Source: Corynespora cassiicola
Taxonomy: Eukaryota > Ascomycota > Dothideomycetes > Pleosporales > Corynesporascaceae
Assembly (NCBI GenBank): GCA_022059125.1
Contig: JAEUWY010000006.1
Location: 2,728,001 to 2,792,000 of the forward strand
Direction: 5' to 3'
DNA: 64,000 nucleotides
Shown here: piece by piece, positions 4,079 to 62,914 of the stretch
Numbering within the stretch: the first letter of the stretch is position 1
Layout of the letters: each line of letters opens with the position of its first letter
Notes under the pieces: generated by a model
What the model was told of the DNA's origin: nothing
The model's input: only the letters and a program-made list of their open reading frames with translations
Databases searched by the model: none
Translations under genes and position numbers: made by a program

Positions 4079-4115
4079 CAGGGAGGGCGACCGACTGATT
4101 CCGGCCTTGACCTTG
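4079..4115 (+). repeat. 37-bp cassette-edge box, copy 1
   Basis: It begins CAGGGAGGGCGACCGAC and ends GACCTTG. It is preceded by a short hairpin (GTGGCAAAAC...TTGCCAC) and lies about 140 bp 3' of the decayed ankyrin tail, at the same relative place as box 9 behind the intact gene. Confidence 0.8.
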
Positions 4116-4518
4116 TACTGAAGGGTAGGCTTTCGGGCCACGAGCAAGACGAAGCACGCGAAGTAGAGGAAGATGACGAGCGAAGAGCGCTGGGCATACC
4201 ATCTACCGTGATCTGAGTGGACTTGTGGCGAGCGTGTCCAAACATGCCTCGACCAGTGCGCTGACGATCAAGAAGCGCACGACGCAGGAGCGGACCTGCG
4301 GATGAGGCGTCGAGACTCGATCTCTGAGCTCGTCCAGTCGACTCCCAAACGGTAGTGTATCTGTTTTTCCTACTTTCCTTCGTTAAGCATGGTGTTAGAA
4401 AAAGGATGAGCAGGTCTCACGGTTGGCTTCTGAAATGGAGAAAATGTAGAGTAGCAGGATATATGTAGCTGGCGCTTCGTAACGGCCCATACCTTCAGGG
4501 TGCATGGCCACAATAGAA

Positions 4519-4520
<2 letters not shown>

Positions 4521-4577
<57 letters not shown>
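4521..4577. repeat. (CA)n microsatellite
   Basis: About 28 uninterrupted CA units. The His-Thr and Val-Cys open frames across it are artefacts of the repeat. Confidence 0.98.
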
Positions 4578-4579
<2 letters not shown>

Positions 4580-4815
4580 ACTGAAGGCGAAGTTTTCCCC
4601 TAGAGAAGATGTGACAAGAGAGGCCCAAAGACAAGAGATAACCGTGATCCCTAGAAAAGACCAATGGAGCGGCTGCTGGGAATTACTAGCTTTGGTGCCA
4701 GTCACGGTTAGATCTCGGAGTCCCAACAGGATCCACAGCGGGATCCACAGCGGGGGCTAGACCAATAGAACATGAAACGAAGACCCTTGCTGGACATATG
4801 TGGATTATTAGCTAT

Positions 4816-5183
4816 TAACGTCTGTCTGTTGTTTGGGCAACCCATGTCTCTGTGTCAGATATGTAACATGTCACGTGCCTGCGGGTATTAATACTCGCAG
4901 AGTAGCTAGCTTTGTACAATAAGCTTGCATCATCACTTCTTCTTCCCACTCTCTAACACTGTCCCTCCGTCGCGCAACAGACCCCGTGCCGCGACAGCTT
5001 CGCACTCCGGACCCTCGGGGTCTCTCGTCTGAATATCAATAAATTTTCAGCTTGTTTATTAACGTTCTACAACTGGTTTTCTCTCTATGCATTATCCTCC
5101 GGCGAGGACTACCGCCATGTTGGTCGTGCTGTTGACCGCTTCGTCGACGCCGCCAATCGACTCATCAGCAATACCCCCTTGTC
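4816..5183 (+). mobile_element. Retroelement end (LTR plus start of internal region), left copy
   Basis: This segment is repeated in inverted, diverged form at 5621-5987. It has an LTR-like layout: GTATTAATACTCGCAGAGTA, then TGTACAATAAGCTTGCATCA and a pyrimidine-rich CTTCTTCTTCCCACTCTC leader. Both copies then encode a similar short peptide (SGEDYRHVGRAVDRFVDA here). I see no gag-pol body. This is probably a truncated LTR retrotransposon. It is not linked to any NLR cassette. Confidence 0.55.
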
Positions 5184-5620
5184 CATTCGCGACCCTAAAA
5201 ATCACTGAAAAGCTCGGAGGGTTATAAAGTAAATTCTAATCATTTAAGACTACCTCAAGCTTTTATGGGCTTCTCCAAGCCAGGAAGATGGCATTCCGAG
5301 AGTTTCTCCGGTCAAAAGAGAAGATGGAGAAAAGCGGCCCATGTGGCGACCCCGATCTAGCGTGCCTTGACCACGCGCTTATGTACAGCTGCCTCTGCCA
5401 ATAGAATACGCGCTGGTGTGGTCTGCTGCATTTTAAAGCACGCTAACCTATTATATCGTGCTGGGTTGTTTTTCTCAAGATTCTCTTTTGTGGCCGGATA
5501 AACTTCTAGAAGGCCAACTTAGGCCAAAGCGGCCCGTAAAGCCTGGATGTGCGACCTTTCTTAGTTAAACTTTCCTTTTAGCAGACCGAGCCTTTAAAAA
5601 AACTTCCAAGTCGCGAGTAG

Positions 5621-5987
5621 ACAGGGGGGAGTTGTCGACGGGTTGATTAACAGCATCAACAAAACAGTTCATAGCGCAGCCAACATGGCGATAGTCATCG
5701 CCGGAGATTAGTGTCATAAGAACAAACTAGATGTGAAAGACCAACATATTAACTGCAGGTTCATAAGCTTCCAAATAAGAGATGCCGGGGGACCGAAGTG
5801 CGAGGCTGTCGCGCCACGGCGGGTGTCGCTCCACGTAGGGATAGTGTTAGAGAGTGGGAAGAAGAAGTGATGATGCAAGCTTATTGTACAAAGCTAGCTA
5901 CTCTGCGAGTATTAATACCCGCAGGCACGTGACATGTTACATATCTGACACAGAGACATGGGTTGCCCAAACAACAGATAGACGTTA
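5621..5987 (-). mobile_element. Retroelement end, inverted diverged copy
   Basis: The reverse complement aligns along its length with 4816-5183, best over the LTR-like outer 160 bp. The peptide frame (SGDDYRHVGCAMNCFVDAVN) is also preserved. The 437 bp between the copies (5184-5620) holds no recognisable gene; it may be a deleted element or an unrelated insertion. Confidence 0.55.
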
Positions 5988-6559
5988 GCGCATGTTCCAA
6001 TTAGTCTCAATCAAGGACCTTCACGGAAGCCAATTTTGGACACCACGGCCTCACGTAGTGTCAATACAAACTTAAAAGCATCTTTGTGAAAAGATCTAAA
6101 TCCCTCTCACGTAGGCAATGACGTATTTCACAAGCAAATCATTCAAGGGTTTCTTGGTATCGCGAAGACACGACCATCAATAACACTATAATTTGATTTT
6201 GTATTACGATTACATTTTGCAAAGTTTCTTACGTGCTGGGCAAATTCTCACGTTGTGTCCAACTGATATACGCCCCCTGCAGTGGCGCGGAGTTCAACTC
6301 TTGCTTTGTGCAGCTTCCGAGGTCGCGCTACAGCCTCCTGTGATAGCTTGTAAAGTACGTTACTAGCATGATATATTGAGTTCTGATAACGAAACAACAG
6401 CCACAACAAATTATCAATGATACTAACATGAAATCTCCTTGATAGTGACCAGCTTAAAATTTCTGCTCCACATGAATGTTCAGGGCCATCGGATTATGTT
6501 TGAGCTCATCGAAATCGCCATGACTTTCTCGCGAACTATCAATCTCTCCTCTATGCTTC
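5988..6559. other. Intergenic, nothing recognised
   Basis: AT-rich non-coding sequence between the retroelement remnant and the 3' end of the HET gene. No ORF, repeat or RNA gene could be supported. Confidence 0.6.
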
Positions 6560-8493
6560 TTATTGTAACAAGAAGTTCCGAGGCTTTGTATAGAAAGTGA
6601 TGCTCTCATCATACATCATGCTATGTAAGTAGCAGTCGCCCAGAAGTTCATGTGACTCGCCGTTAGGCCTTATGACGAAAGGCACAGCACACCCTGCGAG
6701 AAAACATATACAGTCGCCTAACTTCGTGTCTCTTGGTACCCACGCCAAAGAACCTTTGCTCGTAACACAAAACTTTCGACCTTGTGAGAGTTCGAAAAAC
6801 AAACTTTCGTATATGATATCCTTGCTGACTCTAGGGCTGTAGTCTGGAAAACTGAGAGAATAGTTCAGTAGTTTCCCCCTCGCATTGACAAGTTTATAGT
6901 GGAGTCTTCTAAGCCCTGCGATATACTGCGTTACTGGCGCAACGCTCCTGTTCGGCAATGCGTTGAATGCCATTGTGCGACAAAGCGCTTCCAGGAGTTC
7001 GGTATTTGTACCAAACGAACCAACTCCCCGAGCAAGCACATAACACATTATTTGCCACTTAGCCATTTCTTCACACCATTTCAGAATATCTTCACTCTTC
7101 TCGAGCCCTACGGGAACGATATACGTTCGATCTGATTCTATATATGGCATAGAATCGATGATGATACGGGGCTTGTCTACAGTGATTCCTGATATTAATA
7201 GCCCCTACATGATTAGCTCTATGTGTTCTCAGCAAACCCAATGTTCAAACTAACCTTGCCATGGAAAGTAGCATGATCATAATCGTGGGAAAAATAGGCG
7301 CTACCTGGAAAGTACCGGGTCAAAGGCACGAATCTGATGTCGGATGGTCTCCAATCAGGAACCCAACTTGGTAATTTCCATGAATTCTCAGTGATAGTCT
7401 TGCAAGCTAAGAACCTGCTTACACGCTGTGGACCTGTTCCCCATGGACTTGGTTTGAGGTTGCAGGGGGTGGTTCTATACCAGTTTGTTTCAGGTACGGG
7501 CATCGTAAGAGCTACCTTTGCGATCTCCACATATACTGCCTCGGCATCTTTGTTGTAATCAATGATATCCATCGAGACTGCAGTTTGTGTTGATAAAAGT
7601 GCGAAGACACGATCCCGGGGATCCGTGGCTCCGAGGAGTTGGCTTCTTGTCCATAAATCCACAATCCGAATGTCCTGATCCCTCGATATTGTACGGCTGA
7701 TTTTGTCTACGCTGAGTGCAAATGGCTTCAATATAAAACCCTTCGAATTTGAAGTATTCCCACCCAGACCCGTAACAGCTTGTCCGATAGCAGCACATAC
7801 TCCAGTAGCATGTGCGCATCGAACAAGAAGCTCAGTGGAGATGATTAGGGAGCCGGACATGAAAAGCGACTGGGTTGCATTCAGGAATTCTTGGACAATC
7901 CAAATGCGTCCGAACCAAGGGCGGGAAAGAAGAGAAGCCCAGCCGATCCAGCCAAGATCATGGGAGGGTAAGCCCAGTTCTTCTAAAGAACTGGCTCTGA
8001 AAGGTTCCAGGTCTATATGGTCCTGATTATTTGAAAAGAACGTGTTCATGAGGCGTACTGCATCTTTATCGTAGCGTTGTTCTTTTCCAAGCCAGAATAT
8101 AACAGTCGCAGCTCGTGAGTAGATAGATCGCATCATGTTGACCTGAATTCCCTTCTCGATGTTATCTTGTTGATTGATACAGATTGCGTCTGCCCATATC
8201 AAGCTAGAACACCCCTGATGTTTTAGTTGCAGCAACACTTCCCATAAGTTTGACGTGATCGGTACGTTATGCCCGTTACAAACAATCTGATATTGCACCT
8301 TCGGATTGCCCCAGACATAGGAGAGAGCTGTGAATTTTAAGTCGGAATCTAGTCGGTACACTTCAAATTCGATCTCGATGCCCTTCCCGTTAGTAGGCTT
8401 GATGCGCATCAAGCGAAAATCTTGCCGGTTTTCCAGTGGAGAATAGAGTGATGGATGAGCCATGGTTGCAATTACTCGTTTATTGTGTCGCAT
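6560..8493 (-). CDS. HET domain protein (heterokaryon incompatibility family)
   Basis: Two exons, 7255-8493 and 6560-7204, are joined by a 50 bp phase-0 intron (GTTAGT...TGTAG) and give 627 aa. A second ATG at 8463 is an alternative start. The HET core occupies roughly residues 50-210: FTALSYVWGNPK, IWADAICINQQDNIEKGIQV, MMRSIYSRAATVIFWLGK, then RPWFGRIWIVQEF. The C-terminal half has the usual HET tail (LPSWVPDWRPS; CFLAGCAVPFVIRP; LLGDCYLHSMM). HET domains are cell-death effectors in fungal non-self recognition. This one has no fused NTPase or repeat domain, so it is a stand-alone HET protein. No frameshift or stop is seen and the gene appears intact. Confidence 0.9.
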
Positions 8494-9955
8494 TTACCGA
8501 AACCCCCATATAACTAATGGGGCTTTATAGAGTCTAAAATGTAGCTGCTGACTCGAGTTGAGAAGAAAACCGGTGAATTGACCGGGCGAATGGTCTTGGC
8601 AACAGAAGGAAGCGGGGTAAAGACACGTTGTCGCACGCCAAGATGGTCTGTATAACTAAGCTTGCCGTGCGGTTCCTGTTAGATAGCCAGGCTAGGGTGC
8701 AACCAAGAAGAATACACCAACTTTTCACAATATGAGACCACCCACCCAAGCACTCAAAAGTGTGACATATTCATATCATCAAGCCAACAACAGCTTCTTT
8801 GTTCTCACAATGACTTCGCACGCTGGGAGCAGGGACCAGTGTTGAACTGCGTGAAGCCAGTGTCCCGTAGTCACTACGTTGTGACATAATCCTGTGCCCC
8901 TCGACGTAGCATTTTCCAGTCACCCCTTCGGAAAAGAAGATTCCGTAGGACAGAAGCACTGTGTTTTGAACAGTAGCTCTTTGCTAAGCGTCATTCCGCG
9001 GTGAAATTATCCATCACTCTTCTTACTCGTGAAAAACTTTCCTTTCCAGATCAAGTAACTTCATGAAACATGTAGGAACATGTGGAATGATCCGATCCAG
9101 TGGTACTGACGAGCTCTGAGTCAGGCTTAGCTAGCGATACGTGGCTGCGAAGTTTATTGGGTTTCTAGAGGGACCTGGAAGACTCCCTAGCTCCAGTGCA
9201 ACATCAAATCGTTTGTCGCCTCCAATGTCTTTGTTGTCTCTTTACTTTCAGTTTCGTTCCTCAAGGTTTCAAAAGCTGCCCACGGGTTACCAAAGGAGCC
9301 TAGAGGAATAGATCTGGAGGAGAAGAGGGAGAGCTTGAAAAAGTCGCGGCCGCTATGCAGAGGAGCCGAGGGGTTAGGATAGGGTACATTTATTAAAGTT
9401 ACCGGAGGCAGGCTTATTATATTATGGCGGGTGTGTAGAGTTAACAGGCCAGCAGCTGCAGCGATTAGGGCGCGCCATGGGCCCTAGCAGCAGTCGAGCG
9501 CCAGAACGCCACCAGGCGACAGGCGAGTCGCAGCATGGACGTGCAGCAAAGAAGGTGGCGGGCACAAAGACAGAGGAGAAGGAGGGTCTTACTGGAAGGC
9601 TTGCTTGGACGAGATGGCATCAACGACGCGAAAGCCCAGGTCATCGGTGCAGTTGGGGCAGGCGAGAAGCTGGACAAGACTGCGGGAGAGGAGCGTATCA
9701 GTGTAATAAGTCGAGGGAGACGGACGGGGCAATGCGAAAGCGGACAGGCGGGTTTAAGACATGGACATGTATAGTGTGGAGATTATTTGGCAGGCTGGTG
9801 AGATTTGTCCCCAAAATGAGATTTGTCCCCAACGCTAAATTAGTGGAAATAGATGGCCTAAGTAAGCCTAGCGCGCAATCTATCAACGCAACACCATTGC
9901 GACACCAGCGCGCCTTCTATTTTTCTTCTTTCGTTCCACCATCAGCATCCCGTCA
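8494..9955. other. Intergenic, no gene supported
   Basis: Several short open frames on both strands (for example 9477-9965 plus) have arginine/glutamine-rich or low-complexity translations with no recognisable domain. GC-rich 9480-9760 may be remnant coding sequence, but I could not reconstruct a consistent exon set. Confidence 0.5.
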
Positions 9956-10290
9956 GATTTGTTGAGCCTTTGTCTGGACGTTCTTGCTGATATGCCACAC
10001 GCATAAGAGCTGGGGAACTCCTGGAAGGAGCGAACGAGCTGCCAGTTTTAAAGCATCTTCTTGGTCGCTAATAAACACGTGGTTGCCGTACCCCGGTCTT
10101 GGAGAGGAAGTTTGCGATTGCCCAACGGTAGTCTGCTTATGTCTCATTGCTGAGGAAGCAGAAGCCTGCAGAAAAGAAGGTGTGTAGGTTGGTGCAGCCG
10201 AGCACGTGCAATAGTGGAAGTCTATACTTATAGGTTCGGTATGTGCAATCCATCAACATTGCGTCTGGATTGGCTAAGAAATTCCTCTTT
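9956..10290 (-). pseudogene. MULE-type transposase fragment
   Basis: Reading the minus strand from 10290 gives a typical MULE transposase core: NFLANPDAMLMDCTYRTYKY, RLPLLHVLGCTNLHTFFSAG, CFLSNET, then VFISDQEDALKLAARSLLPG and PQLLCVWHISKNVQ. The two halves are in different frames, with a stop between them near 10140, so the fragment is dead. Only about 110 residues of the usual several-hundred-residue enzyme remain, and no terminal inverted repeats were found. It marks past Mutator-like activity. Confidence 0.8.
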
Positions 10291-10523
10291 GTATCTTATT
10301 ATGCTTATAATGGAAAAATTGTGCAGACTCGGTGAGAGATGACACGATGAGTCGTCACCGCCTCTGTTGAAGCAAGTGATTGAGTTGACTGCTAAGTAGG
10401 TAGATGGGACGCCTTATATATATACGCGTATCCAACCCCTGTCACACCTATGCTTCAGCCACCGTGATATTTTGACAGAGGAGGTTCTAGAAAAACAAAA
10501 TATAAAAGCTTCTGAGCCTGGAT

Positions 10524-12753
10524 TCAGAGGCCATATCCAGTTTTCGTATGAGCTTTCTCGTCCTGTGCCTTCTCATAAAGTAGCTCAATCAATTGCTTCC
10601 GCATCGCAAGCAGCCCAAGAGTTTCGGTTACGACGGAACGATCGCATTGAAACATTGTCTGCTCGCTCGACAACATGTCCCGCCGAATTCCAAGAGAGGA
10701 ACCTGGTGATGGGATGAAGCAGTTGTTTTCGCTCCTCGCAGCTCGCAGCTGGCAGATCTCATTGGTGCGACAGTTCTGCTCGCAGGATGGCACTTTCCAT
10801 CCTCTGGTTCGTCGTATCCAATACTCATTGAATGCAGTGCTATTGGACTCCAGTAATACGGTGACATTGTGCCAAAACTCGGGGGTGAGCTCAGTCGTAG
10901 GGTCCATATCGAGGGGTGGGTCGACAAGGGGTCCGTAGGCTTCTCTTACAGAGTAATATCTTGTCCACACCGGACCTCTTTGGAATTGATCACTTTCCAT
11001 ATCTGCATAGTACGTGTCGATTTCCATTACGCCAAATGTTATGGGATCGACTGTGTAAATCCGAAAGGCTGGCATGCCGGATAACGGAGTTAGAGACGGA
11101 GCAATGTAGGATATTCCAACAGCGTTGTCTGGGTTACGATTCTGGTAGTCTGAGTAACTAATCTGGAAATGGTCGAGGTGCGTGTGTCCTGATGAGAAGA
11201 TTCAGTACAAGAGACTCAAGCTCATAATAAACAGTGCTATTCTCGTAGGAATGACCGGGGGGGGGGGGGGGTAACGCAAGAATTGATGAACAACTTACCG
11301 AAGAACATGGCCGCAATTGTGTCTTTGTAGCGATTGACAATTTGATCAAAGTAGTTCGACGCGTCATAAAAGGCGTCAGGTGCACCCATTGGCATGTGTC
11401 CAATCAAGTAAACCCTCTCCCCAACATTCTCGGCAGCATCGAGTTCCCTGATCAGGCGTGCAAACTCACTCCCGGGATCTTTCCGAGGGTCTTGATAAAG
11501 CCAGAAGTTCAACGTGTACCACATATTTGTTGAGAGCGAGATGATACGTAGATTACTTCCATTGTGCTTAACAGAGTACACACCGAAAGACTTGGCATCC
11601 TCGGGGGAGCCTATCCATTGCGACCACGCCTTGGAGACAACGTCATAGAGCCACTGAGCGCTATTTCCCAAGTGTCTCGGCGGGATAGCATTGAACGGAG
11701 ACATCTCGTGGTTACCAATAGTCCCGTAAACCGGACTCACCCCCAGGTCGGCCATGTGCTGATATGCGGTAGTGATCTCGGCAGAGTTGTGTTCAACTGA
11801 AGTATTCCAGATGGCATGATCCACAATATCGCCAGTAAAGATGGAGAAGTCGGGCGACAGGCGCTGAATGGCCTCGTACATGCTCTTTTCTAGGCTTAGG
11901 GGAGCACCACAGTTGTGGTCACCAAAAGGCCCGGCAGGAAAATCGTTATTTCCGCGGGCATCTGCGGCAGTGTATGGTCTATTTGGGCAGTGTTAGCCAG
12001 TTTTGGTACCTTTAGAGCGCCCATAGTACCTACCGACAACACATTGGCTTGGTGCAGTTGGTGTTCGCTCCTTGTGTGTATAGTGTATCGATATGGATGT
12101 CGGAAAAATGCGCAATCTTCAAAGGGCTTTGAGACGTTTCAACAGAAGACAGTGCTGGCTGACTTTGATTTCCTTTGGGACGCTGCGGAAACGACATCTT
12201 GCTACCGTCCGAACGAGGGAAGTCACAAAGACCCAATACAGACGCACAGAATAGGTCGGAGGTCTTTGAGGGTATAGTCATGCTACGAAGAGTAGAAGCA
12301 AGAAGAGGCCCAGCAAGAGATAGGGTTCCATTGCACACATCTCGGTCCGCACGCTAAGATTCCAGTTAGCTTGACATATTTCTAGATCCTCAGGCTTCCG
12401 TTTACTTACTAGTGCGGCAATGCAAAGTTCCTGCATAACGCGAATAAAACTATCATCGCCTGCAGAAGCTAGGGATTTGAGAGCTATGAGGATTCCCTGT
12501 GAACATGAGCTTAACATCTCTGCCGTTTCGTTTTCTTGTACAATAGAACTTCGAGTCGCGCGCGACTTACCTGACATGCATTACAGCTTCTACTATTGGT
12601 AAGATCATTCCAGATATCAGTTGTAGTTTCCGGGATTCTTGAGGGATTATCAGCCATTGGGGCTATACTGTCCTTCGGAACGATATCCGCAGTTACGATG
12701 TGACCAAAGATGCCAAGGCCTACAGCCAGAGTTGCCAATGATGTAAGCTTCAT
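10524..12753 (-). CDS. Acid sphingomyelinase-like phosphodiesterase
   Basis: Five exons (12571-12753, 12410-12496, 12034-12353, 11299-11978, 10524-11188) splice in consistent phase to 644 aa. The start ATG at 12753 gives a signal peptide (MKLTSLATLAVGLGIFGHIV). A saposin-B-like domain follows with the expected cysteines (SCNACQ, MQELCIAAL, DVCNGTLSLAGPLLAS, FCASVLGLCDFP). The metallophosphatase domain carries all metal-binding motifs: HFSDIHID, FTGDIVDHAIW, GTIGNHE, LIGHMPMG and FFGHTHLDHF, the last created by the splice. It should be a secreted or vacuolar enzyme hydrolysing sphingomyelin-like phosphodiesters. Intron 4 (11189-11298) contains a run of about 13-15 guanines on the plus strand that shifts naive reading frames. 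It looks like an ordinary intact metabolic gene, unrelated to the NLR cassettes. Confidence 0.93.
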
Positions 12754-13310
12754 ATCATACACGGCGATGGACGAAAGAGTAATTGACTTTTAGAAATGCA
12801 TGAAGAAAGTTGCGAATACCAATGCTCTTTAAGGGATTATTATAGGGGGCTGTCCCCCTTTTTCTGCTTAGTTGACGTCATAATCAACAGAGCTTGACAT
12901 CTGCCTTAATGTCCTAATCCAGTTTGCAAATTTCCCAAATTTGGACTGCAGGGCGAGCCAATCAGATACAAAGTCATACGGTGATTGATGTAAGGTATGC
13001 ATCGGACGCTCAGCAACAGTTGAGCCTTAAAAGTGCGAACGAGGTAATCGTTTCATAGTGCTCATCATGATATATTGAAGCGCGCAGTTCCTTTGTCTGC
13101 GGCGGCACGAGTGACCTGCCACGACTGTATGTCTGAAAGAATTGTCATGATTCTGGATACCGGCCTGGCTTTCACGCTGAGCAGTCGAAGTTTCCGGTCG
13201 TTGTTTGCACCCGAGGAGACGTAATCATTTGACGAAGGAACACGCTTGAATTGGATATTTACTGTCCTGTTTCCCGGACTCAGTGCCGACTCTTCGCCAG
13301 CTCTGCCCTC
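12754..13310. other. Intergenic between two minus-strand genes
   Basis: It contains the promoter side of the sphingomyelinase-like gene and the 3' side of the membrane protein gene at 13311. No other gene or repeat recognised. Confidence 0.6.
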
Positions 13311-14135
13311 TTACGTCTTTCCTGCTTCCGCCTTCTTTTCATCGCCTTGTAACTCTTTCCATTCCTCATTCGATACCACCCTTACAAGAAACCCTAGCAC
13401 TACATAACCTCCGCTCATGAGCGCCTCTGGCAGTAGCCCCATGCATAGGAAAATGGTTACATTTCCGCTGATCGCGCTGAACCGCCCTGCATCCCCAAGC
13501 ACGTCGATTGCCAAGTAAACTGTCCGGACACAAAGCAGTGGCAGTCCCATCACCAATACGGCCAATGTCTTTCTCTCTTCTCTTGGAACAAATCTGCGAT
13601 ACATTGCGTAAAGCTCTCCTGCTGCGGCCAATGTACTCGCGAAAGCAGCTACGTACATCCCGGCAGCAGCCTTCAGGATCGCAGAATGCTTGACGATGCC
13701 GTGATCGACCTCCTTCTTGGAAATACCTCTGTATCCAACGCTTGCGCAGATGAACGCCGCCGTGACCAGAACCTCTAATAGGCGCAGGAACGAGATGCCC
13801 AAGGCCGTGCTCCCCTGAATCCTCGGTTTGTCTCGCATGATGAAGTAGCGCAGGCGGTGGACCAGGCCAACGCTCATGAACAGTAGCGGGGAGAGACCGT
13901 CAACGGCGAGAGTGGCAGCAGCGACGCGCAGGCCATGTTTCTCTGGGTTTGCAGAGGCTGCATGAATGAGCGCGGCGTAGGCGCAGCGGGTGACAGAGAA
14001 GGTGGATAGAACGAACCAGGTCCACCAGCTTTGCCGCCAACCGTGACGGATGATAAGAGCGACAGAGATGAGGAAACAGGGGATGTAAAAGATTAGGAGG
14101 AGGATTGCGACAATATCGCGATAGCTGAGTGTCAT
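13311..14135 (-). CDS. Seven-helix fungal membrane protein (DUF7702-like)
   Basis: A single-exon 274 aa protein starts at ATG 14135. It begins MTLSYRDIVAILLLIFYIPC and shows about seven hydrophobic segments with short loops: near residues 5-30, 38-58, 72-95, 108-130, 150-172, 190-212 and 220-255. The C-terminal tail is charged (NEEWKELQGDEKKAEAGK). The overall pattern, including the conserved YRD start and the RHGW after helix 1, matches the fungal DUF7702 integral membrane family. No enzymatic or receptor function is established for that family as far as I know. The gene is intact and GC-rich compared with its surroundings. Confidence 0.8.
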   Translation of the reverse strand: MTLSYRDIVAILLLIFYIPCFLISVALIIRHGWRQSWWTWFVLSTFSVTRCAYAALIHAASANPEKHGLRVAAATLAVDGLSPLLFMSVGLVHRLRYFIMRDKPRIQGSTALGISFLRLLEVLVTAAFICASVGYRGISKKEVDHGIVKHSAILKAAAGMYVAAFASTLAAAGELYAMYRRFVPREERKTLAVLVMGLPLLCVRTVYLAIDVLGDAGRFSAISGNVTIFLCMGLLPEALMSGGYVVLGFLVRVVSNEEWKELQGDEKKAEAGKT

Positions 14136-15416: not shown

Positions 15417-15454
15417 CAAGGATGACGGCCGACCCGTTCCTACGCAGGCCTTTG
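15417..15454 (+). repeat. 37-bp cassette-edge box, copy 2 (variant)
   Basis: It begins CAAGGATGACGGCCGACC and ends GGCCTTTG, one base longer than the others. It is preceded by a hairpin (GGTGGCAACC...TTTTGCCACC) and followed directly by repeat R2, as is box 9. It is not near an NLR gene. Confidence 0.7.
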
Positions 15455-15575
15455 TTGGGGTGCAAAGCTGTGTAGTTTTCATTGTGCAAAAGCAAGAAGA
15501 ACATTTCCAGCATCTTTCAATTAGGTACAGTAGAGTGGGGTAGAGCCTCGAAAATGTGCAAATCGGAAGGAACTA
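15455..15575 (+). repeat. Dispersed repeat R2, copy a
   Basis: It aligns with 56949-57075 and more weakly with 18528-18655. Shared words are GGTGCAAAGCTGTG, TTGTGCAAAAGCA, TCTTT-AATTAGG and AAAATGTGCAAATCGGAA. It is non-coding and may be the body of a small non-autonomous element whose end is the 37-bp box. Confidence 0.65.
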
Positions 15576-53201: not shown

Positions 53202-56200
53202 ATGCCGCGTCAGCTGCGCCGCGAGGACTACACGGTGGGATGGGTGTGCGCACTGCCCGTCGAGCTGGCGGCAGCAAAGGCGATGCTCGACGAAAAGCAT
53301 GATAACTTCGGACGCGATGTCAGCAGTAACGATGAAAACGTATACAGCGTAGGGTCGATTGCAGGCCATAACGTTGTGATCGTGTGCCTACCGGCGGGCC
53401 ACATTGGAAACAACCCAGCGGCGACTGTGGCGACACAGATGCGGGCAGCATTCAGGGGAGTTCGATTCGGGCTCATGGTCGGCATCGGCGGTGGCGTTCC
53501 CAGCGCAGAGGCAGACATCCGGCTCGGGGATGTGGTGGTTAGCAAGCCATACCAAACTTTCGGCGGAGTGGTGCAGTATGACATGGGCAAGTCAACGCCA
53601 AACAGGTTCGAGCGTACTGGATCGTTAAATTCACCGCCGCAGATACTGCTCAGTGCAGTGAGTACTGTCCAAGCAAACGAAATGCTGGGCGAGAGCGTAT
53701 TCTCCAACCAAATGTCCAAACTCGAGAGTATTCCCACCTTCCAGCGCGGCAGGACCGGACCCGATGTTCTGTTCGAGGCCGCATACGACCATGAGGGCGG
53801 GCAGACATGCGACCAGTGCAGCACCGTCAAACATAAGGCAAGATCACAACGCGAGAGCGGAGAGGTGGTGGCGCACTACGGGACGATCGCATCGGGAAAC
53901 CAGGTGATGCGAAACGCCGCCGAACGCGACAGGGTCAGCGCCGAGCTCGGCGGCGTGCTCTGCTTCGAGATGGAGGCCGCCGGCCTGATGAACAGCTTCC
54001 CGTGCCTCGTGGTGCGCGGCATCTGCGACTATGCCGACTCGCACAAGAACAAGCGGTGGCAGGCGTATGCAGCGGGGACGGCGGCGGCGTGGGCGAAGGA
54101 GTTGCTGTCGGTGATCCCAGCGGCCGATGTGATGAGCACACGCCGGGCCGAAGAAGCGATGAACGGCTCAAGCAGTCAGTATAGCAGTTGTGTGGGGGAG
54201 AGTTCGTCTAGACTAATTTCATGACAGAGCGTAGCCTGGAGCCTCTAGCTCACGACCGCGCTCCTAAACGTAGAAACATTGGCACTCCCAATAGCACAGA
54301 AGACAACGCCGCAGAGTAAGTCAAATGCTCTCTCTAGCGAACACAACCTAGCAAAGCCCCGCTGATGATGACAGGGAGCAAACGACTATACGTACGTAGG
54401 TTCACCGTCAACCAAAGCCAATTCGATCTGACCCTATTACGTTAGTTCCAACGCATCACCGCCCTCGGGACCGAACATCGCTGAATGATGAGCAAAGACA
54501 CTGGCTCTTGGAGTCTTTGACGTTTGAGCAAATCGACGCGCGCCAGATGACGATCAAGACTGCCCATGCAAGGACGTGCAAATGGCTCTTGAAGAGTCCA
54601 CAATACCTCAATTGGCTTGACGCGACTAAAGTGGAGGAACACCATGGCTTCCTGTGGATTAAAGGGAAGGCCGGGGCAGGAAAGTCGACGTTGATGAAGT
54701 TTTCCATGATCAATGCTCGTAGAAAAATGAAAGACTGCGTCAAGCTGGCCTTCTTTTTCAACGCACGGGGCGAAGATATAGAGAAGTCCACGATCGGAGC
54801 ATATAGATCGCTACTGTTCCAGCTTTTGAAACAGCTTCCAGCGCTCCAAACTGTTTTCGACTCGCTCAACCTCCTAACATTAAACTTCAGCACAGACTAC
54901 CACTGGAACATCGAATCGCTGAAGATGCTCCTCGAGCAAGCCATCCGGGCACTCGGGGAGTCTTCTGTAGTGTGCTTCATCGATGCATTAGATGAATGCG
55001 AAGAGGAGCAGGTCAGAGACATGGTTCAATTTTTTGAACGTATTGGTGACTTGACCGTCACAGACGGGACCCGTTTCCAGGTCTGCTTCTCGAGCAGGCA
55101 CTATCCACACATCACGATCCGCCGTGGGCTGGAACTCGTGCTGGAAGGCCAAGAGGGGCACACTCAAGACATCGCCAACTACGTCGAGACGGAGTTGAAG
55201 ATCGGGAAAGGCAAGACTGCCCAGCAGGTCCGAGTCGAGCTTCAAGAGAAGGCATCGGGGATTTTCATGTGGGTTGTCCTTGTTGTGGGCATCTTGAACA
55301 AAGAGTCAGACAGAGGTCAGGTGCATACGCTCCGGCGGAAACTGCAGGAGATCCCCGGCGACTTGCACGAGCTTTTCCGAGATATCTTAACGCGAGACTC
55401 CCACAATAGAGACGGGCTCGTCTTGTGTATTCAGTGGGTACTCTTCGCTAAGCAGCCCTTGAGTCCAGAACAGCTGTACCACGCCATTCTTTCGGGCACC
55501 GATCCCGACGCAGTATCCGAGTGGAATTCTGAGGAGGTCACCAAGGATGTGATCAAGCGGTTCATACTCGACTCTTCCAAAGGTCTTGCCGAGGCCACTG
55601 TGTCCAAGGAGCAGAGGGTTCAGTTTATACATGAGTCCGTGAGGGACTTTCTGCTCAAAGAGAACGGGCTCAGCAAGATATGGCCTGAGTTCGGAAGCAA
55701 CTTTCAAGGCCAGAGCCACGAGCGACTCAAGCGATGCTGTTTGAGCTACATCAGCATCGACGTTGCTTCGCCGCTAGAGATTCCTGACAGGCTCCCCAAA
55801 GCGTCTTCGCAGGAGGCAGCGACGCTGCGCAAAGTAGCAGCGCAAAAGTTTCCCTTTCTGGAGTATGCTGTTCACAATGTGCTATACCATGCAGACGTGG
55901 CAAGAGATGGCGGAATCTCTCAGGTAGACTTTCTCGCTAGTTTTCCGCTTCCTCGGTGGGTTGGGCTAGACAATCTGTTTGAGAAACACGAAGTGCGCAG
56001 GCATACCGAGCGCGTCAGTTTTCTGTACATGCTGGCTGAACTCAACATGGCAAGCCTCCTGAAGACTCACCCATCTATTCTCTCGTGTCTTGAAGTGGAG
56101 GATGAGCGTTATGGCTGCGCCCTTTTCGCAGCGATTGCGACGGGGGGTGAGGAAGCTGTCCAAGCATGCATGGAAGGACTTGAAGCGAGTCGGTCTACCG

Positions 56201-56805
56201 AAAGCCGCTCTTACGATTTGTCTAGACTAGAGCCCCAGAGTGGACATGCGACGCGTGGCGCTAGACGCGATTTCAACTACAGCAAGAAAAGAGGGGTTTT
56301 CTCCTGTGCAGCCGAGCTTGGGAACGAGAGGGTGCTTACTTACCTAATAGACTCGGATAAATTCGAAGTCGACTCCAAGGATGTGGATGGACGGACACCG
56401 TTGTGGTGGGCTTCGAAGAGTGGCCGAGAGGCAGCGGTGAAGCTGCTAGTCAGCATAGAGGAGGTAGATGTTAACAGTAAAGATAAGCGAGACACGACGC
56501 CACTGCTCATAGCAACAGGGAAGGGCCACGATGTAGTCGCGGGGCTGCTGATCGAGGGAGGCGCCGATGTCAACGCCCAGGGTGGATACTACGGCAACGC
56601 GCTCCAGGCAGCTTCATACAGAGGCCGCAAAGACATTGTAGAGCTGCTGGTCAAGGCGGGCGCCAACGTCAACGCCCAGGGTGGAGAATACGGCAACGCG
56701 CTCCAGGCAGCTTTAGAGGGAGGCCACAAAGACATTGCAGAGCTGCTACGCAGAGCAGGTGCAACTTTGCTTTCTCGCAACAGTACCTTCTTCATATGTC
56801 AATAA
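53202..56805 (+). CDS. PNP-NACHT-ankyrin NLR, right copy of palindrome 2
   Basis: Proposed exons 53202-54174, 54228-54315, 54375-54391 and 54446-56805 give 1145 aa. The first intron begins GTCAGT in phase 1, as in the other PNP-NLRs. The 17-nt third exon is my solution for keeping one frame between the linker (HDRAPKRRNIGTPNSTEDNA) and the NACHT entry (RTSLNDEQRHWLLESLTFEQ); it needs transcript support. Domains are as in the left copy: PNP, NACHT (GKAGAGKST, IDALDECEEE), a winged-helix-like region (VQFIHESVRDFLLKENGL), and four C-terminal ankyrin repeats. In this arm the PNP start faces the 3' end of the CorA-like gene, so this copy lacks the head-to-head partner and is probably the derived duplicate. 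Confidence 0.92.
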
Positions 56806-56911
56806 GGACCACGAAATCGGCTTACGCAAAGTAGAAAAATCGTAATGTAATGCTTACTCAGGATATGTAACAGCATCTTCGGTATTTTGTGGCGAGATCT
56901 CGCCACTATCG

Positions 56912-56948
56912 CAGGGATGACGGCCGACCGATTCTGGCCTTGACCTTG
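56912..56948 (+). repeat. 37-bp cassette-edge box, copy 9
   Basis: Identical to box 8, with the same perfect hairpin GTGGCGAGATCTCGCCAC before it. Right-hand limit of palindrome 2, about 107 bp after the NLR stop. It is followed by repeat R2, as box 2 is. Confidence 0.9.
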
Positions 56949-57075
56949 TTGTGGTGCAAAGCTGTGATGTTTCGTTGTGCAAAAGCATGAAGAGTGTTTC
57001 CAGTGTCTTTGAATTAGGCAGAGTAGGGGGGAAGTCTCGAAAATGTGCAAATCGGAAGTAGGGTTCAAAAGCAGG
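56949..57075 (+). repeat. Dispersed repeat R2, copy c
   Basis: Adjoins box 9 and aligns with 15455-15575 (GGTGCAAAGCTGTG, TTGTGCAAAAGCA, AAAATGTGCAAATCGGAAG). The rest of the interval to 57681 shows no gene; short open frames there have no recognisable domain. Confidence 0.65.
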
Positions 57076-57681
57076 GCCGAGATGCATGCTCCACAGCGAG
57101 ATCCAAAAACGGGCCCGCGCGGTGACAGCTTTTGGGTCAGCGTTTAGCTATTTTTAGACAGAAGCTGCCGAGCGATGCTGCTCCGCATCGCGACGCGAGT
57201 CTATGATCACGTGATAGCACGCCAACCAGCGACTCGGTGCTAGAGTCTACCATCTCCCATACTACCAACGACAATGGATCAATGCAATGGCCTTTTGACA
57301 GCTAAGCACAATCTTGTCAGCCCGTGGCTAGGTTCCGCTCATGAAAGCTGTGTTCCTCTTACCCCTCCACTTGACGAGTACCCAAAGTCGCCCCCAGTTC
57401 TTTGAAAAGGAAGCGCGCCATGCCCTTCCCCACGAGCGCATCCGTACTCAGCTCACATCGCAGCAAAAGCTCCAAACGGCGAAGGACCGAATATATCGAT
57501 AATATCCAGCCCGGTCAGAGTGAATCACAGCTAGGAGGCGAAACACCACTAGCGAAGTACTAACTAAAGCACCCTTCGCATTTGTAGTCGTCATCCTCTC
57601 AAGAGTAGACGAACGTCGCAGACCGAGACAACAGACACAGCCATCTTTCGAGATAGACCATACAGTTGGTGCCGATGATGT

Positions 57682-59301
57682 TTAGGAACTGCTGCTGGCA
57701 CTGCTCCTAAATTTTGTTGACGGCCATTCGATATAAGTTCGGGGTGAGAACAGAATTTTGGCTCTATCTGCTTGACAGAGGTTGCTCCAATGCATTTTAC
57801 ACATCAGGATATACCCACTACGTGAGTTCTGAACCATGGCCGAAAGGAGGTTTCGCACCAACGTCCAAGTACTTGCAGGGCAGTCACAATCTGGTAAACT
57901 CCTAGTGCTGTCTGCGTCGAACCGAGGAGTATCCTTTCCCAAAGAACCTACGTATTGTGAGTCGCTATTTCTGGTTGTTTCTGGTGGTAAACATACCGTT
58001 CCCTCCCTTTCGCGATTAGCAGCCAGGAAATACCATTCATGCCCTTGAATGACGATGACAGGGATGTACGGAAGCCCTGGCAATCCTCCGCCGTCGCTCG
58101 CCACCAGTTGTTCAAGCTTGTTCAACTGAGCCGTCACCCAAATGCTCATCTGTATCTTGGCCGTGTCCCAATCTCTCCCTGTCAGCTTTGTCTCGATACT
58201 TATAGCAAGTGGTCGTTTTTGCAACGGCGGATAGCAGGTGTGGTTCCAAGAAGCGGTGGTGAATGGGTCTCGAGAAGCGAGCTGGCGAAGAGCATCGTGC
58301 ATTTCATCATCTGGGTCAATATATATGCCAAAGTCAACCATCTTGGATTCGATAGGAAGACCGGCGAAGTCTAACGGTAAAAGTGTCTCCGGCTCGATAC
58401 GGGCTTTAGTACTAGGACCAGATAAGCGCCACTGCGGATAACGTAGAATAGAGATACCTACCAGTCCAAAAACCCGACTTTTCCACAATACGTTTGATTG
58501 TAGAGAGCGAGGTCTAGGAGGTACGTATGTACTCTACCGTTCCAAGATGCTTCGCTGTGTTCATTTGACTCGCATTCTATAGCAAGGCGAACTGCCTTCG
58601 CAACTTCATGTGCCTTTGGGCAAGGCCCAAGATATACTCTATCTATGTCGTCTGCGAATACGAGTTCGTCGGCGAGGATTTGGCGGAATGCTCTATCCGA
58701 GGACATTGAATCGATTGCAACCTATATCTATCAGCTTAGGGAAAAAGATAGATCCGTTTTAACTCACCTTTTCTGATTTGGGTATAACCCCAAGTCCTCG
58801 ACCTATACGTCTCAACCGTAGGACCATACTCTCTAATTCATCTGGCAATGTAACGGTAGGGTCGTCAATGGATTTCATCACGACTGGATTGGGCAACAAG
58901 GAAAGGTTGGCCATCTTCCGCATAGGCTGTTTCTTTTTTGGACTGTTCGATCGACGGGAATGAGAGGAGAGGGTGGTGCGACTGGAAGTGGTGAAGCTGG
59001 AGGGCGAGGGCGGCTCCATAGCTGTGTTTGACTTGGCTCTTGGAGTGTTCTCGACATCTTGAGTTGCACACGACGAATGCTCCGCTTCTCCATGGCGGCG
59101 GCGTTTTGAAGGGGACAGGTCACCGGTCGACATTTTGTTCGCGATCCGTTCGCTATTCGATCTCTTTCGTTTATTGGATCCAGTCGACGGCGGGGGCGAC
59201 GGCGGACACAAGAGCCAGGAAGAGACGAGATCGTGAGAAGCGTTGGCGGGCGGTAGCAGTAACTGAATCGTTTCCTTGCAGAGCCACGCAGCTACAGGCA
59301 T
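57682..59301 (-). CDS. PD-(D/E)XK nuclease-like fungal protein, second member
   Basis: The likely start is ATG 59301 (MPVAAWLCKETIQLLLP, matching the WL motif of this family). The first exon (to about 58763) carries a basic, Ser-rich stretch (TGSNKRKRSNSERIANK, SPSKRRRHGE). A GTGAGT...ATATAG intron leads to the second exon (VAIDSMSSDRAFRQILADEL to KVGFLDW near 58458). The third part (WRLSGPSTKARIEPETLLPL) contains the core: MVDFGIYI with Asp, then AISIETKLTGRDW as the ExK motif, and AKIQMSIWVTAQLNKLEQL. The junction between the second and third exons is unclear: the good donor GTAGGT leaves only about 30 nt of intron, while a 47-nt intron needs a weak GTCGGG donor. So the gene may be slightly damaged. 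Same family as 36797-38312. Confidence 0.8.
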
Positions 59302-60083
59302 GATGCGATCGAAGGGGGTTGACGGTGACGCGCTGCGATGTTGACGTCGATTTCCGTGAGGGGGGCCAGGGTTGCTCGGGCAATTTAGCGGGTCCACGTT
59401 TTGCCGCCGTGACAAGGCTGCAACAACCCGATTTATCCGCTTGTTCGCCGCAAAACTGCTAGACAATCAAGCTCTACTGAAAGGACATTTTCAACCACTC
59501 GAAACATGAATATATGAATGGAGAACTGTCCTGTTGAACATAGGGAAATGTGACTAGCTGGCGATAATTGAGAGTGGCTAACGCTGTGGCGCAGCAACTC
59601 GAATAGTATCTAGCTGTGATAGGCTATGTAAGGATCTAGTTTTAGACAAGAGTATTTGCTTTACACTAGAAGGGATAGCGGAAAGATGGCTCGAATAATA
59701 TATATTGGTAGTGGTTTTTAGAATAATACTTGTCTCCCCTGAAGCGCACGTTGAGCGCAGGTTTTGTGCGGCTGGCTCGCCTTTGGCGCTAATACAAACA
59801 CGGAATAGCCAAAACCCCACAACACCTGTTATAGGCTAACATGACAGAATTGCACTAACGTACTATGCCAAGATTACTTGTCGCTGCTTCAGTTCGCGAA
59901 GGCAGTACATGAATTAGCTTGGCCGTGATGAGTAAGCCCCATGACTCGAAAAATCATCATGCATGGTTGCCTGGGCTGAGTTGGCATTTGATCCCATCTA
60001 TCTGCTTCTTTGGAAAGTCGAAACTCAGTACAGTTCGTCCTGATCACCGCATATATTTACAACAGTCCAGTCGAACATCGAAA
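59302..60083. other. Intergenic between divergent genes
   Basis: Promoter region shared by the nuclease-like gene (minus) and the HET-like gene (plus). An in-frame ATG at 59928 could extend the HET-like protein by 52 residues. No repeat or RNA recognised. Confidence 0.6.
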
Positions 60084-62093
60084 ATGAAGAAACCAACAAT
60101 CACTGACAACACTGAAGAAGATACTGCCATAGACGATAGAGCCTTCTCTTTGTCGACCCTGCGAGCGCGGGCCGGAAAACCCCTGCATTATGTCGTTCTA
60201 GATATTTATGACTGCTTTAGGAAAGAGAACGAAAAATCTACCAAGTTCCTGGACAATCTGAAGTGTTTTCTACCCGAGCGTACCGGCCATAAACGATACC
60301 CCTACAGCTACGACAGACAAGCAAGCTCCGATACAATCCTGCTTGAACCTCACGTCAACCCTCAGCGTTATGTAGCTGTATCTTATCCTTGGAGTGTGTC
60401 GTACGGCGAAAGCAGCATCAGGAGGAAATACAAACTCCAAGGAGAAACTGTACCTGTGCGCGATGTCGTTCTTGATCGAACGATTCGTTTCATTCGAGAG
60501 AAGGAAAGAGGTCGAAAAATGATCCCCTTCTGGATCGATCAGCTGTCGCTTAACCGGAATGACGACTTGGAACACAAGCTGGGCATGCAATCAATGGACC
60601 GGGTTTACAAGGAATGCGAATATGCCGTTGGCTACCTTTGGGCAAAGATTAGCACACAAGCCCAGATAAATCTTCTAGCAAACCTTCTTAAGGGCAAGAT
60701 AGCTAAAGAGGTCCCTGATGGGCAATTTCCCATTCTGAGAGAAGACATTGATGCGCAGATGGCAGATGACATTCTCGACTTACTTACTCAGATCATGGAC
60801 GATCAGTGGTGGAGCAGGGCATGGATATTTCAAGAGGACTATCTGGCTGGCACAAAGATGTGGCTTCTCATTCGCCACACTCAGGGCCTTAACAAGTCCT
60901 TTGCACAAGAGGAGCTAGGGACCCTCTCATGTGAGCTGGTGGTGAAGTCGGAGGAGTTTAGGAAATACGCCACTTTGTTTTGTCTGGCTCTACAGAGGAA
61001 AATCGATCCGAGTACTTTTGCTAGCGTAACTTGCTCTAAGATCCTTCGCAAGGCCGGGCAATACAAGACGATTCACAAATACAAGGCCAATTTAGACAAG
61101 GCTCCAGCAATGACGATCGACATTCTGACGGAGCTCAACGAGCGGGGAATAACTGTACCATCCGACTTCCTCGCCATTACCGCAAACGTCTGTGATTATG
61201 ACGTTAGAGTTATACCCAAGAAAAACGATACCTCAAGGGTGAGCCTAAGCATGGGGATTGTCGCTCTATGTATATCCAATGGAGAAATGATCGGCAGCCA
61301 ATCAGAAATTGCTGTTCCCTATGGAAACATATTCGATTTTCTTAGAGACGACGCTTTGCACATAAGCGCTCCTTTGGTGGATGGAGCGTTGACATTTAGC
61401 AAGCACTGCAGACTTTCAGTCGACCACCTTTCACTGGCTGGTATTCATACAAAGGGAGTTCTTTGGAAACTTTCAGATCCAATACGGCCAAGCTCTTTCA
61501 GAAAACTCCCACTCTACGATTGCAAGAGATCAAATCAGCGAGACATTTTTCGAAACGGGCTCAATGAGCACCACCGAAGTCGTCTGATCGAACTCGTTAG
61601 AGTGCTCAGTCAGCGAAACATGGATAGATACAGCCTTCTAGTGAATGATCTTCTGCGATATCTACAAAATCGTGAGCGAACAGTCACGAGCAACGACTGG
61701 CCTTCGACATTCGTCATGGATGAAATGGCAGTATACATCGTTGACGCAATGGATACTGGAAAATACATTCAAGTCGCAAGTCTTGTTCAAGGCCGAGAAG
61801 AGAGGTCAGACATGCGTTACCGTGCCCTCTTTGTTAGAGACCGTCACGAGATTCAGCGTTCGGGTTCATCGTATATTTTCACTTCATGGACTGGTACCAA
61901 AGAAGAACTCAGCAACCAGGTCAGACTTAAGCGGCCCGCAAAGTATGTGTCTGTAGAAGTCATTTTGAATGGGATAGCTGAATGCGGAGCGGTGAGCCTG
62001 AGGAGTAGGAGGTGGACGAACGGCCTATGCTTCTTTAGTGGAGAGATGAAATCGGCATTTGTCTTCACATGGCCTAGACTACTTTGCGAATAG
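60084..62093 (+). CDS. HET-like domain protein
   Basis: A single exon. ATG 60084 (MKKPTITDNTEEDTAIDDRA) gives 669 aa; ATG 59928 would give 721. It has a divergent HET core: YVAVSYPWS near residue 95, MIPFWIDQLSLNRNDDLEHK near 150, MQSMDRVYKECEYAVGYLW, then QWWSRAWIFQEDYLAG near 243. These correspond to the SYxWG, WIDxxCINQ, MxxIYxxA and RxWxxQE motifs of the HET family. The C-terminal 400 residues have no domain I recognise. HET proteins trigger incompatibility or cell death on non-self contact. No fused NTPase. Intact, and outside the NLR cassettes (between boxes 9 and 10). Confidence 0.82.
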   Translation: MKKPTITDNTEEDTAIDDRAFSLSTLRARAGKPLHYVVLDIYDCFRKENEKSTKFLDNLKCFLPERTGHKRYPYSYDRQASSDTILLEPHVNPQRYVAVSYPWSVSYGESSIRRKYKLQGETVPVRDVVLDRTIRFIREKERGRKMIPFWIDQLSLNRNDDLEHKLGMQSMDRVYKECEYAVGYLWAKISTQAQINLLANLLKGKIAKEVPDGQFPILREDIDAQMADDILDLLTQIMDDQWWSRAWIFQEDYLAGTKMWLLIRHTQGLNKSFAQEELGTLSCELVVKSEEFRKYATLFCLALQRKIDPSTFASVTCSKILRKAGQYKTIHKYKANLDKAPAMTIDILTELNERGITVPSDFLAITANVCDYDVRVIPKKNDTSRVSLSMGIVALCISNGEMIGSQSEIAVPYGNIFDFLRDDALHISAPLVDGALTFSKHCRLSVDHLSLAGIHTKGVLWKLSDPIRPSSFRKLPLYDCKRSNQRDIFRNGLNEHHRSRLIELVRVLSQRNMDRYSLLVNDLLRYLQNRERTVTSNDWPSTFVMDEMAVYIVDAMDTGKYIQVASLVQGREERSDMRYRALFVRDRHEIQRSGSSYIFTSWTGTKEELSNQVRLKRPAKYVSVEVILNGIAECGAVSLRSRRWTNGLCFFSGEMKSAFVFTWPRLLCE

Positions 62094-62877
62094 TTTGTTA
62101 GCAAGTGCGAAATTAGATGGAACATGCCAGGTCTTACATTTATATAGGCCAGAGGAGGCCTTTTTCTACTGTTGTAGTTGTATGATATGGTGGCTCAGGC
62201 GACTGAAGCCTGGGTGATGCATTGGTGGCGACCAAGATAGCAATAAAGGTGAAGAAGCTACTACAATCAGACGCTATGACTTTAAAGGAGAGAAGGTCAG
62301 ACTGTTACCGTTCTAAGTGCAACGCATGTCAATACCTCGGTTTGTGCGGACTTCAGCCAAAGGTTCGCGCATTAGAAACCGTGCACCTATTTGTGTCGCT
62401 TCCAGTTGTCGGATGTATTTCTCTGCTTCAGTAGTTTCCTCCATCTGACTCAAGACTTCTTTGCGACATATCCAATGTTACCCCCATTTATGAGCCTTTG
62501 CTTGTTGCTGCCATGTTCCCTCTTGCTCCAACACCACACACTAAATTTGTAGAATGCCTGCCACGGAATAGTCGATGAATGGATGCTGGGCGCGTTAGCT
62601 GACTCGGCCACGATACTCCGCAGCTGTGCCAAAGTGGGTGCTCAACCGTTGACCACTGGCTCAAGAGCCTGCCATCGTGTCTACGAAAGCCTGCTGGAGT
62701 TCTCAACTGGCTTACGCGGGCCCTCTTGGTCTCCGGTCAGATAGTACATCCTGATACTTTTTCGAGGTCCTGATCTTACAATAAGACATCATGTAGACGC
62801 TATCCACCCCGTCCAAACATAATGCAGGCATTCATCATCACTTCTAGTCATGTTTTGAACAAATTTCACCAGCTAGA
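62094..62877. other. Intergenic, nothing recognised
   Basis: Short open frames only. No domain, repeat or RNA supported before box 10. Confidence 0.6.
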
Positions 62878-62914
62878 CAAGAATTGGGCAGAAAAAGGCC
62901 GACCACCCTCCCTG
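62878..62914 (-). repeat. 37-bp cassette-edge box, copy 10
   Basis: On the minus strand it begins CAGGGAGGGTGGTCGGCC and ends CCCAATTCTTG, the most diverged copy. It lies about 470 bp 3' of the TPR relic on the relic's strand, comparable to the 330 bp between the TPR genes and boxes 4 and 5. Confidence 0.65.

Follow-up and report, generated by a model that had tools for sequence, protein, structure and literature searches.

In the integrons of bacteria, gene units are exchanged at a common short site in the vicinity of a tyrosine recombinase gene, and DNA transposons with terminal inverted repeats (TIRs) that carry host genes (Pack-type, hAT, and Tc1/mariner elements) bring one unit to several loci. 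The Starships of the Pezizomycotina are giant elements whose captain, a DUF3435 tyrosine recombinase, occupies the first position at the 5' edge and points into the element; direct repeats mark both ends, and in the literature covered here they move as one large block. Patatin-like, ferric reductase, and DUF3723 genes are among their accessory genes, as are, according to PMC12506042, NOD-like receptor (NLR) genes. In the Sordariales, 602 of 2349 NLRs have been assigned to 272 clusters of two to five genes, and the available portion of that report mentions no boundary sequence (PMC12258605). Here, we describe a stretch of 64,000 nucleotides from Corynespora cassiicola (contig C6, positions 2728001 to 2792000; referred to below as the window), where ten copies of a 37-bp sequence, the box, lie around NLR genes, and we follow this box through the genome to which the window belongs (44.35 Mb in 23 contigs, one assembly of one isolate).

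On balance, we favor the reading that the box is the end of a mobile NLR cassette and that NLR-bearing units (N) and the blocks next to them (K) have been shuffled at the trinucleotide TTG, probably within elements of the Starship type. The resemblance to integron cassettes lies in the exchange of gene units at a short sequence that they have in common, in the neighborhood of a tyrosine recombinase gene; the differences are the eukaryotic host, the inverted sites on both ends of the N units, and the existence of two polar cassette classes. Inverted terminal repeats and the presence of one unit at several loci are shared with TIR transposons, which differ in that here target-site duplications (TSDs) are absent, no transposase occurs in the open reading frames (ORFs) scanned, and the neighboring blocks are equally modular. 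As in Starships, DUF3435 genes occur at the arrays of boxes, reading toward them, and the cargo includes NLRs; different from Starships as described in the literature covered, the cassettes are box ended and reassort. NLRs are clustered as in the Sordariales, but the arrays hold more of them and a boundary sequence, as far as the available portion of PMC12258605 allows the comparison. In a literature search at the level of titles and abstract openings, with most subscription journals outside its coverage, we found no box-ended NLR cassettes, no Starship cargo described as split into reassorting box-ended cassettes, and no publication pairing C. cassiicola with Starships.

Occurrence and structure of the box

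The ten boxes of the window, one of them 38 bp long, were all verified in the sequence at the places and on the strands that an initial annotation had assigned to them. A profile built from 82 non-redundant copies across the genome, the ten window boxes themselves included, matched the window exactly ten times (E ≤ 1.1e-5, the next best match having E = 1.4) and found 34 boxes, these ten among them, at E < 1e-4 over the 264 kb that it was used to search. Genome-wide counts come from pattern searches, and degenerate boxes beyond the 264 kb may be missed. A 17-mer with up to 2 mismatches gave 72 matches against 5 for the reversed control, a 28-mer with up to 3 mismatches gave 103 against 3, and a 29-mer that includes the left extension of the box gave 70 against 0. 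The non-redundant set derives from the 28-mer matches, 95 of which were usable, after removal of 13 on duplicate contigs; the sequence left out comprises C3, C17, C22, and C13 below 30 kb. These regions duplicate parts of C2, C6, and C13 and could be haplotype copies, segmental duplications, or assembly redundancy.

Most of the boxes are organized in arrays, located at C1:91-513 kb, C2:4.74-4.82 Mb, C6:2.72-2.90 Mb (with the window inside), C8:1.35-1.38 Mb, and C9:0-65 kb, and the others lie on contigs that partly duplicate the arrays, with a few isolated copies. Isolated or degenerate boxes outside the arrays (C15:160916, C20:17557, C6:279387, C7:8151, C5:3812404, and C23:1379094) may be relics of older cassettes; the copies at C6:279387 and C7:8151 have identical flanks.

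Across the 82 copies, bases 1 to 37 have a high information content that falls at base 38, which gives the box a sharp right edge, and a weak extension, TTGCCACC, is present on the left. TTG occupies bases 35 to 37 in 72 copies, 60 of which read CCTTG. Furthermore, the box contains an imperfect dyad, GCAGGGATG-N10-CATTCCTGC. The attC site of integrons folds as a single-strand hairpin; for the box, RNAalifold found no consensus structure in 66 distinct copies on either strand (energy 0.00), and the window has no Rfam match at gathering score, so that a role as RNA or hairpin was discarded. The start of the box has one exact 19-base match in the IMG/VR viral contig L089, probably by chance.

Two polar classes of intervals

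Since the box is asymmetric, neighboring boxes define two kinds of intervals, N intervals, with the CAGGG sides inward, and K intervals, with the CTTG sides inward. The 68 intervals shorter than 25 kb (88 boxes) divide into 29 N, 27 K, and 12 mixed ones; with seven weaker boxes added, the figures become 31, 29, and 11, and the NLR counts are unchanged in a recheck covering all 37 NLRs near boxes and 10 of the 63 others.

The NLRs were counted as NPHP3_N matches, whose 123 rows were reduced to 100 by removing redundant contigs and second fragments of single genes. As many as 37 have a box no more than 15 kb away, against 2.6 expected from the 2.6% of the genome that this distance covers; an even spread of boxes without enrichment or bias, which would have spoken against the initial suggestion, was not seen. 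Pure N intervals hold 27 of the 37, and 4 more have a single N-facing box only. In the pure intervals, NLRs are distributed as 27 N and 1 K, compared with 0 N and 14 K for FunK1 and PDDEXK_12 together (Fisher P = 3e-10, also with the seven weaker boxes added), so that the position of the NLR on the CAGGG side, proposed in the initial annotation for the window, turns out to be a nearly complete orientation bias.

The 13 matches or match groups of FunK1 comprise 6 in K intervals, 2 with one K-facing box, 1 relic on an N side, and 4 partial or weak matches away from boxes. For PDDEXK_12, 17 loci were found: 8 in K intervals, 6 in mixed ones, 1 with one K-facing box, 1 with one N-facing box, and 1 away from boxes. 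In the C1, C2, and C6 arrays, a box lies within 15 kb of each of the eight non-redundant full-length FunK1 genes found and of 16 of the 17 PDDEXK_12 loci. Homologues of FunK1 point to a Dothideomycete, one of them, a partial match, being a C. cassiicola protein with 92% identity over 60% of the query. HET genes are spread across the genome, with 9 of 146 matches near boxes (206 candidates, 150 matches scored, 146 used). Further products of the K blocks of C1 are RNase III, a 3'-5' exonuclease, and C2H2 zinc fingers, and mixed intervals contain DUF7924 and an FtsJ methyltransferase. The separation of NLRs from FunK1 and nuclease genes into two polar block classes hints at paired or opposing functions.

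Reassortment of flanks and position of the switch point

The flanks of the 82 boxes were grouped by single-linkage clustering at a score of 20 (the best of 3,000 shuffles reached 11.5), which yielded 36 N families and 44 K families. No fewer than 77 boxes represent distinct N/K combinations, and therefore the two sides have reassorted. Each of the 18 N families with more than one member is joined to two or more K families, and of the 15 K families with more than one member, 14 are joined to two or more N families; in particular, the commonest K end (15 boxes) joins 13 N families and the commonest N end (17 boxes) joins 13 K families. A constant insertion of N units into one and the same pair of K flanks was ruled out, as K-flank pairs differ across N units.

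The box itself is divided unequally between its two sides. Pairs of boxes with the same N flank are 90% identical over bases 1 to 28, pairs sharing the K flank only 75.6%, and pairs sharing neither 76.3%, while identity on the K side begins at about bases 33 to 38. These values rest on pairs that are not independent of each other and whose nearest 40 flank bases agree to 85% or more in an ungapped comparison; 83 of the 180 same-N pairs qualified, as did 25 of the 134 same-K pairs. At the level of sequence, bases 1 to 28 thus travel with the N side. It follows from this one-sided pattern that the switch point, at GACCTTG, belongs to roughly the last nine bases of the box.

Whole units at more than one locus and joints without a box

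An N unit of 4,031 bp is present at C6:2835386-2839416 and, inverted and of equal length, at C13:33761-37791, with 6 mismatches. The match stops no more than 1 bp from the box edges, and each of the four outer flanks comes from a different K family, in support of the initial suggestion that the cassettes move or recombine as units. That suggestion had missed that K blocks are shuffled too, that the joint is at the CTTG edge, that TTG joints exist without a box, and that recombinase genes occur at the arrays. The FunK1 block 19955-23071 of the window (3117 bp) is 98.2% identical end to end to C1:341268-344383 (3116 bp), and the N cassettes alongside differ between the two places. Similarly, the RNase III/PD-(D/E)XK block 32936-38630 matches C1:131773-137299 with 95.8% identity over 4802 bp.

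A PD-(D/E)XK block of 2,279 bp, enclosed between boxes at C1:372716-374994, recurs at C1:166789-169069 with 98.4% identity, without boxes and with TTG on both sides. Three box-free TTG joints could be recognized in all (C1:166786, C1:169070, and about C16:308040). At the C16 joint, where no significant box match was found in 6 kb of local sequence, two K ends are fused through TTG, and elsewhere both of these ends abut boxes (one at C8:1377864+, the other being the commonest K family). We suggest that the three joints represent empty or excision sites.

Boxes in inverted orientation close both ends of 27 N units, none of which shows an exact TSD at any length from 3 to 12 bp; matches of 2 bp occur in 3 of the 27, no more often than in permutations. 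The two boxes of a unit are more similar to each other (identity 0.88) than boxes with ends shuffled among units (0.78), and the likeness continues inward; in 9 of the 27, the ends are alike over the box plus 60 bp. Together with the palindrome arms of the window (Table 1), this end identity points to recent duplication or ongoing conversion. The interval C9:25418-28907 is a palindrome across its full length, with 98.7% identity. K-block ends are not mutual inverted repeats above the level of permutations.

DUF3435 recombinase genes at the arrays

The DUF3435 domain (PF11917) gave 11 matches at 6 loci (C1:491.9 kb, C2:4737.7 kb, C9:69.2 kb, C6:3017 kb, C22:43 kb, and C8:1285 kb), all of which read toward the nearest box, at distances of about 1.3 to 117 kb; the chance probability of this arrangement is about 0.016 if the orientations are independent. 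As in an integron-type arrangement, a tyrosine recombinase gene is linked to the boxes at three loci, on the K side of C1:495746, C2:4740273, and C9:65312, with the domain 1.3 to 1.8 kb from the box. The three genes stand behind one common K flank, are 93 to 99% identical in the parts compared, and each joins a different N family; in the C2 copy, a downstream stretch of about 455 bp, outside the reading frame, is missing. These data provide a good lead, not a demonstration, that the arrays are the cargo of Starship-type elements.

Proposed mechanism and alternative explanations

In the mechanism that we propose, an N unit would consist of one NLR, or an inverted NLR pair, between inverted boxes, with CTTG as the outer edge, and successive N units would be separated by K blocks, in which FunK1, PD-(D/E)XK, and comparable genes reside. 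Units of either class would be cut and rejoined whole at the outer box edge, with TTG as the joint, and the same joint would be used where two K-type ends meet without a box. A recombinase acting in trans at the box edge, most likely one of the array DUF3435 tyrosine recombinases, could carry out the reaction. Unit-wise shuffling bounded by boxes is strongly supported by the genome sequence, through the unit boundaries, the reassortment of flanks, the whole units at more than one locus, the absence of TSDs, the box-free TTG joints, and the recombinase genes beside boxes; what we infer beyond this concerns the status of the TTG joints as empty sites, the acting enzyme, the chemistry, the order and timing of events, and the benefit to the host. 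It is also possible to hypothesize, although we regard it as doubtful, a eukaryotic integron-like system, in which a Starship-type tyrosine recombinase would shuffle box-ended NLR cassettes among kinase and nuclease effector blocks, joining them precisely at CTTG, and would thereby reassort the non-self-recognition repertoire through site-specific recombination of entire genes. A boundary sequence and unit-wise exchange would provide a testable mechanism for how fungi generate variable NLR repertoires and, if true, a new means by which immune repertoires are rearranged; moreover, they would link NLR diversification to Starship-type recombinases and make the box a sequence handle to delimit such cassettes in other genomes.

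Several observations weigh against the favored reading. The switch point is the box edge and not the center of the imperfect dyad, different from sites of the Cre/lox type. The TTG is missing in register from 10 of the 82 boxes, in some of which it is shifted by one base, and the (C/T)TTG ending, initially described as fixed, thus holds for the majority only. The 12 mixed intervals break the alternation of N and K; one NLR (C2:4765463) lies in a pure K interval, and five of those near boxes lie in mixed ones. In addition, 63 of the 100 NLR matches are not within 15 kb of any box, so that the statement that the box marks every NLR segment applies to the arrays but not to the genome. Mean flank identity of the N units is slightly raised at 5 and 7 bp (reached by 26 and 43 of 500 permutations, respectively), with no exact unit. 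Two of the three box-free joints are firmer than the other, because the TTG at C1:166786 may have on its left an NLR that was cut short, and not a K block. As for the recombinase genes, a distance of about 17 to 117 kb separates the other three loci from their nearest boxes, the matched stretch contains an in-frame stop at two of the six loci (C6 and C22), and the C1 gene is placed between two parts of a long array and not at its outer end.

The box could instead be a conserved control element (terminator, insulator, or part of a promoter) at which ectopic homologous recombination or gene conversion crosses over, with no dedicated enzyme, because it is the only sequence common to otherwise unrelated intergenic regions. 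In the window, complete NLR genes do have a box no farther than about 100 to 350 bp from the ends of their ORFs, the box is strongly conserved across families, conversion or recent duplication is evident (9 of 27 N units with like ends, palindrome arms 99 to 100% identical), and conversion from box to box would leave no TSD. Crossovers by homology are expected anywhere in the 37 bp, yet bases 1 to 28 are unlinked to the K side, and plain homologous recombination within the box is disfavored because they are linked to the N side alone. With box-free joints through the same TTG, and so many NLR matches without a box within 15 kb, we judge this explanation rather unlikely. Unlikely too, in our estimate, is that the N cassettes are non-autonomous TIR transposons (TIRs of 37 to 50 bp, with Pack-TIR-like capture of NLRs) mobilized by a transposase encoded elsewhere, the K blocks being mere flanking DNA. 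Inverted boxes on both ends of the 27 N units, the likeness that extends inward, and a box that follows its N side would all fit; the 3-bp TTG of the box-free joints resembles a short transposon footprint, and the outer end CAAGG conforms to the hAT end consensus YARNG. The absence of exact TSDs of 3 to 12 bp from all 27 units, with 2-bp matches at permutation level, argues against it, as do the K blocks that are themselves shuffled as units. No transposase family was found among the 50 ORFs scanned (E ≤ 0.01), and no genome-wide search for DDE families was made. Insertion of the hAT type, suggested by the CAAGG/CAGGG ends, was rejected: there is no 8-bp TSD, and the hAT dimer domain (PF05699) gave 0 matches, its control being silent as well.

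It would finally be conceivable that palindromes and near-identical units were mis-joined during assembly, so that the combinations are false, and the duplication of parts of C2, C6, and C13 mentioned above could be taken in this sense. Against this, the 77 different joints are in many cases between diverged units, copies on redundant contigs were excluded beforehand, and a repeat of 37 to 50 bp alone should not mislead long reads, if such reads were used; we consider an artifact very improbable.

Organization of the window

The features of the window are collected in Table 1.

Table 1. Boxes, cassettes, and intervals in the 64,000-nucleotide window (positions in the window)
Feature	Position	Strand	Description
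Box 1	4079..4115	+	CAGGG side faces PNP-NACHT-ankyrin NLR relic
Box 2 (38 bp)	15417..15454	+	N-flank family recurs at C9:65312+, 98.6% over 285 bp
Box 3	19918..19954	+	CAGGG side is 378-bp stump of HET-NACHT NLR cassette
Box 4	23072..23108	-	Left end of N cassette 1 (palindrome 1)
Box 5	32899..32935	+	Right end of N cassette 1 (palindrome 1)
Box 6	38631..38667	-	Left (5') end of HET-NACHT-WD40 N cassette
Box 7	43621..43657	+	Right (3') end of HET-NACHT-WD40 N cassette
Box 8	46758..46794	-	Left end of N cassette 3 (palindrome 2)
Box 9	56912..56948	+	Right end of N cassette 3 (palindrome 2)
Box 10	62878..62914	-	CAGGG side leads into TPR NLR relic
N cassette 1	23072..32935	.	Palindromic PNP-NB-ARC/NACHT-TPR NLR pair, arms 4142 nt, 99%; loop with DUF6594
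N cassette 2	38631..43657	+	HET-NACHT-WD40 NLR, ORFs 38984-41338 and 41370-43427
N cassette 3	46758..56948	.	Palindromic PNP-NACHT-ankyrin NLR pair, arms 4184 nt, 100%
K block	19955..23071	-	FunK1 kinase
K block	32936..38630	+	PDDEXK_12 (37294-38100); RNase III judged from C1 homologue
K block	43658..46757	+	FunK1 kinase (44187-46517); 82% to 19955-23071 block, opposite orientation
K block	56949..62877	.	PDDEXK_12 (57682-58533 -), HET (59913-62093 +)
Mixed interval	4116..15416	.	K end left, N end right; HET, metallophosphatase, DUF7702 genes
Mixed interval	15455..19917	.	Commonest-K-family end left, NLR stump right

By the box coordinates, the three enclosed units measure 9864, 5027, and 10191 bp, as initially reported. 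The palindromes span 23071-32936 and 46752-56954, with arms of 4.1 to 4.2 kb and loops of 1.6 to 1.8 kb. Boxes 2 and 3 had been set apart as exceptions with no NLR on their CAGGG side. For box 2, this remains so, as no NLR was found there; for box 3, it does not, since the stump is 80% identical to C1:358748-359087, where an NLR cassette has its 5' end, and the match reaches the box. Because the box 3 side is an NLR stump and the box 2 side a shared N flank, we read the mixed intervals as places where a box was lost or a unit partially lost, and the interval 4116..15416 has probably lost one box. As regards the genes placed on the CTTG side, FunK1, PD-(D/E)XK, and HET-only genes were found there in the window, one HET gene (7219-8493) falling within a mixed interval, and RNase III was scored only in the homologous C1 block.

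Repeats of 126 bp, corresponding to WD40 and TPR units, occur at 41583-43142, 23553-24608, and 31392-32447, mostly about 90% or more identical within a gene, and resemble those of repeat-homogenized fungal NLRs. An inverted repeat of 420 nt (4816-5235 and 5568-5987), with 77% complementarity, 332 nt between its halves, and relatives near C1:196.7 kb, is possibly a small transposon.

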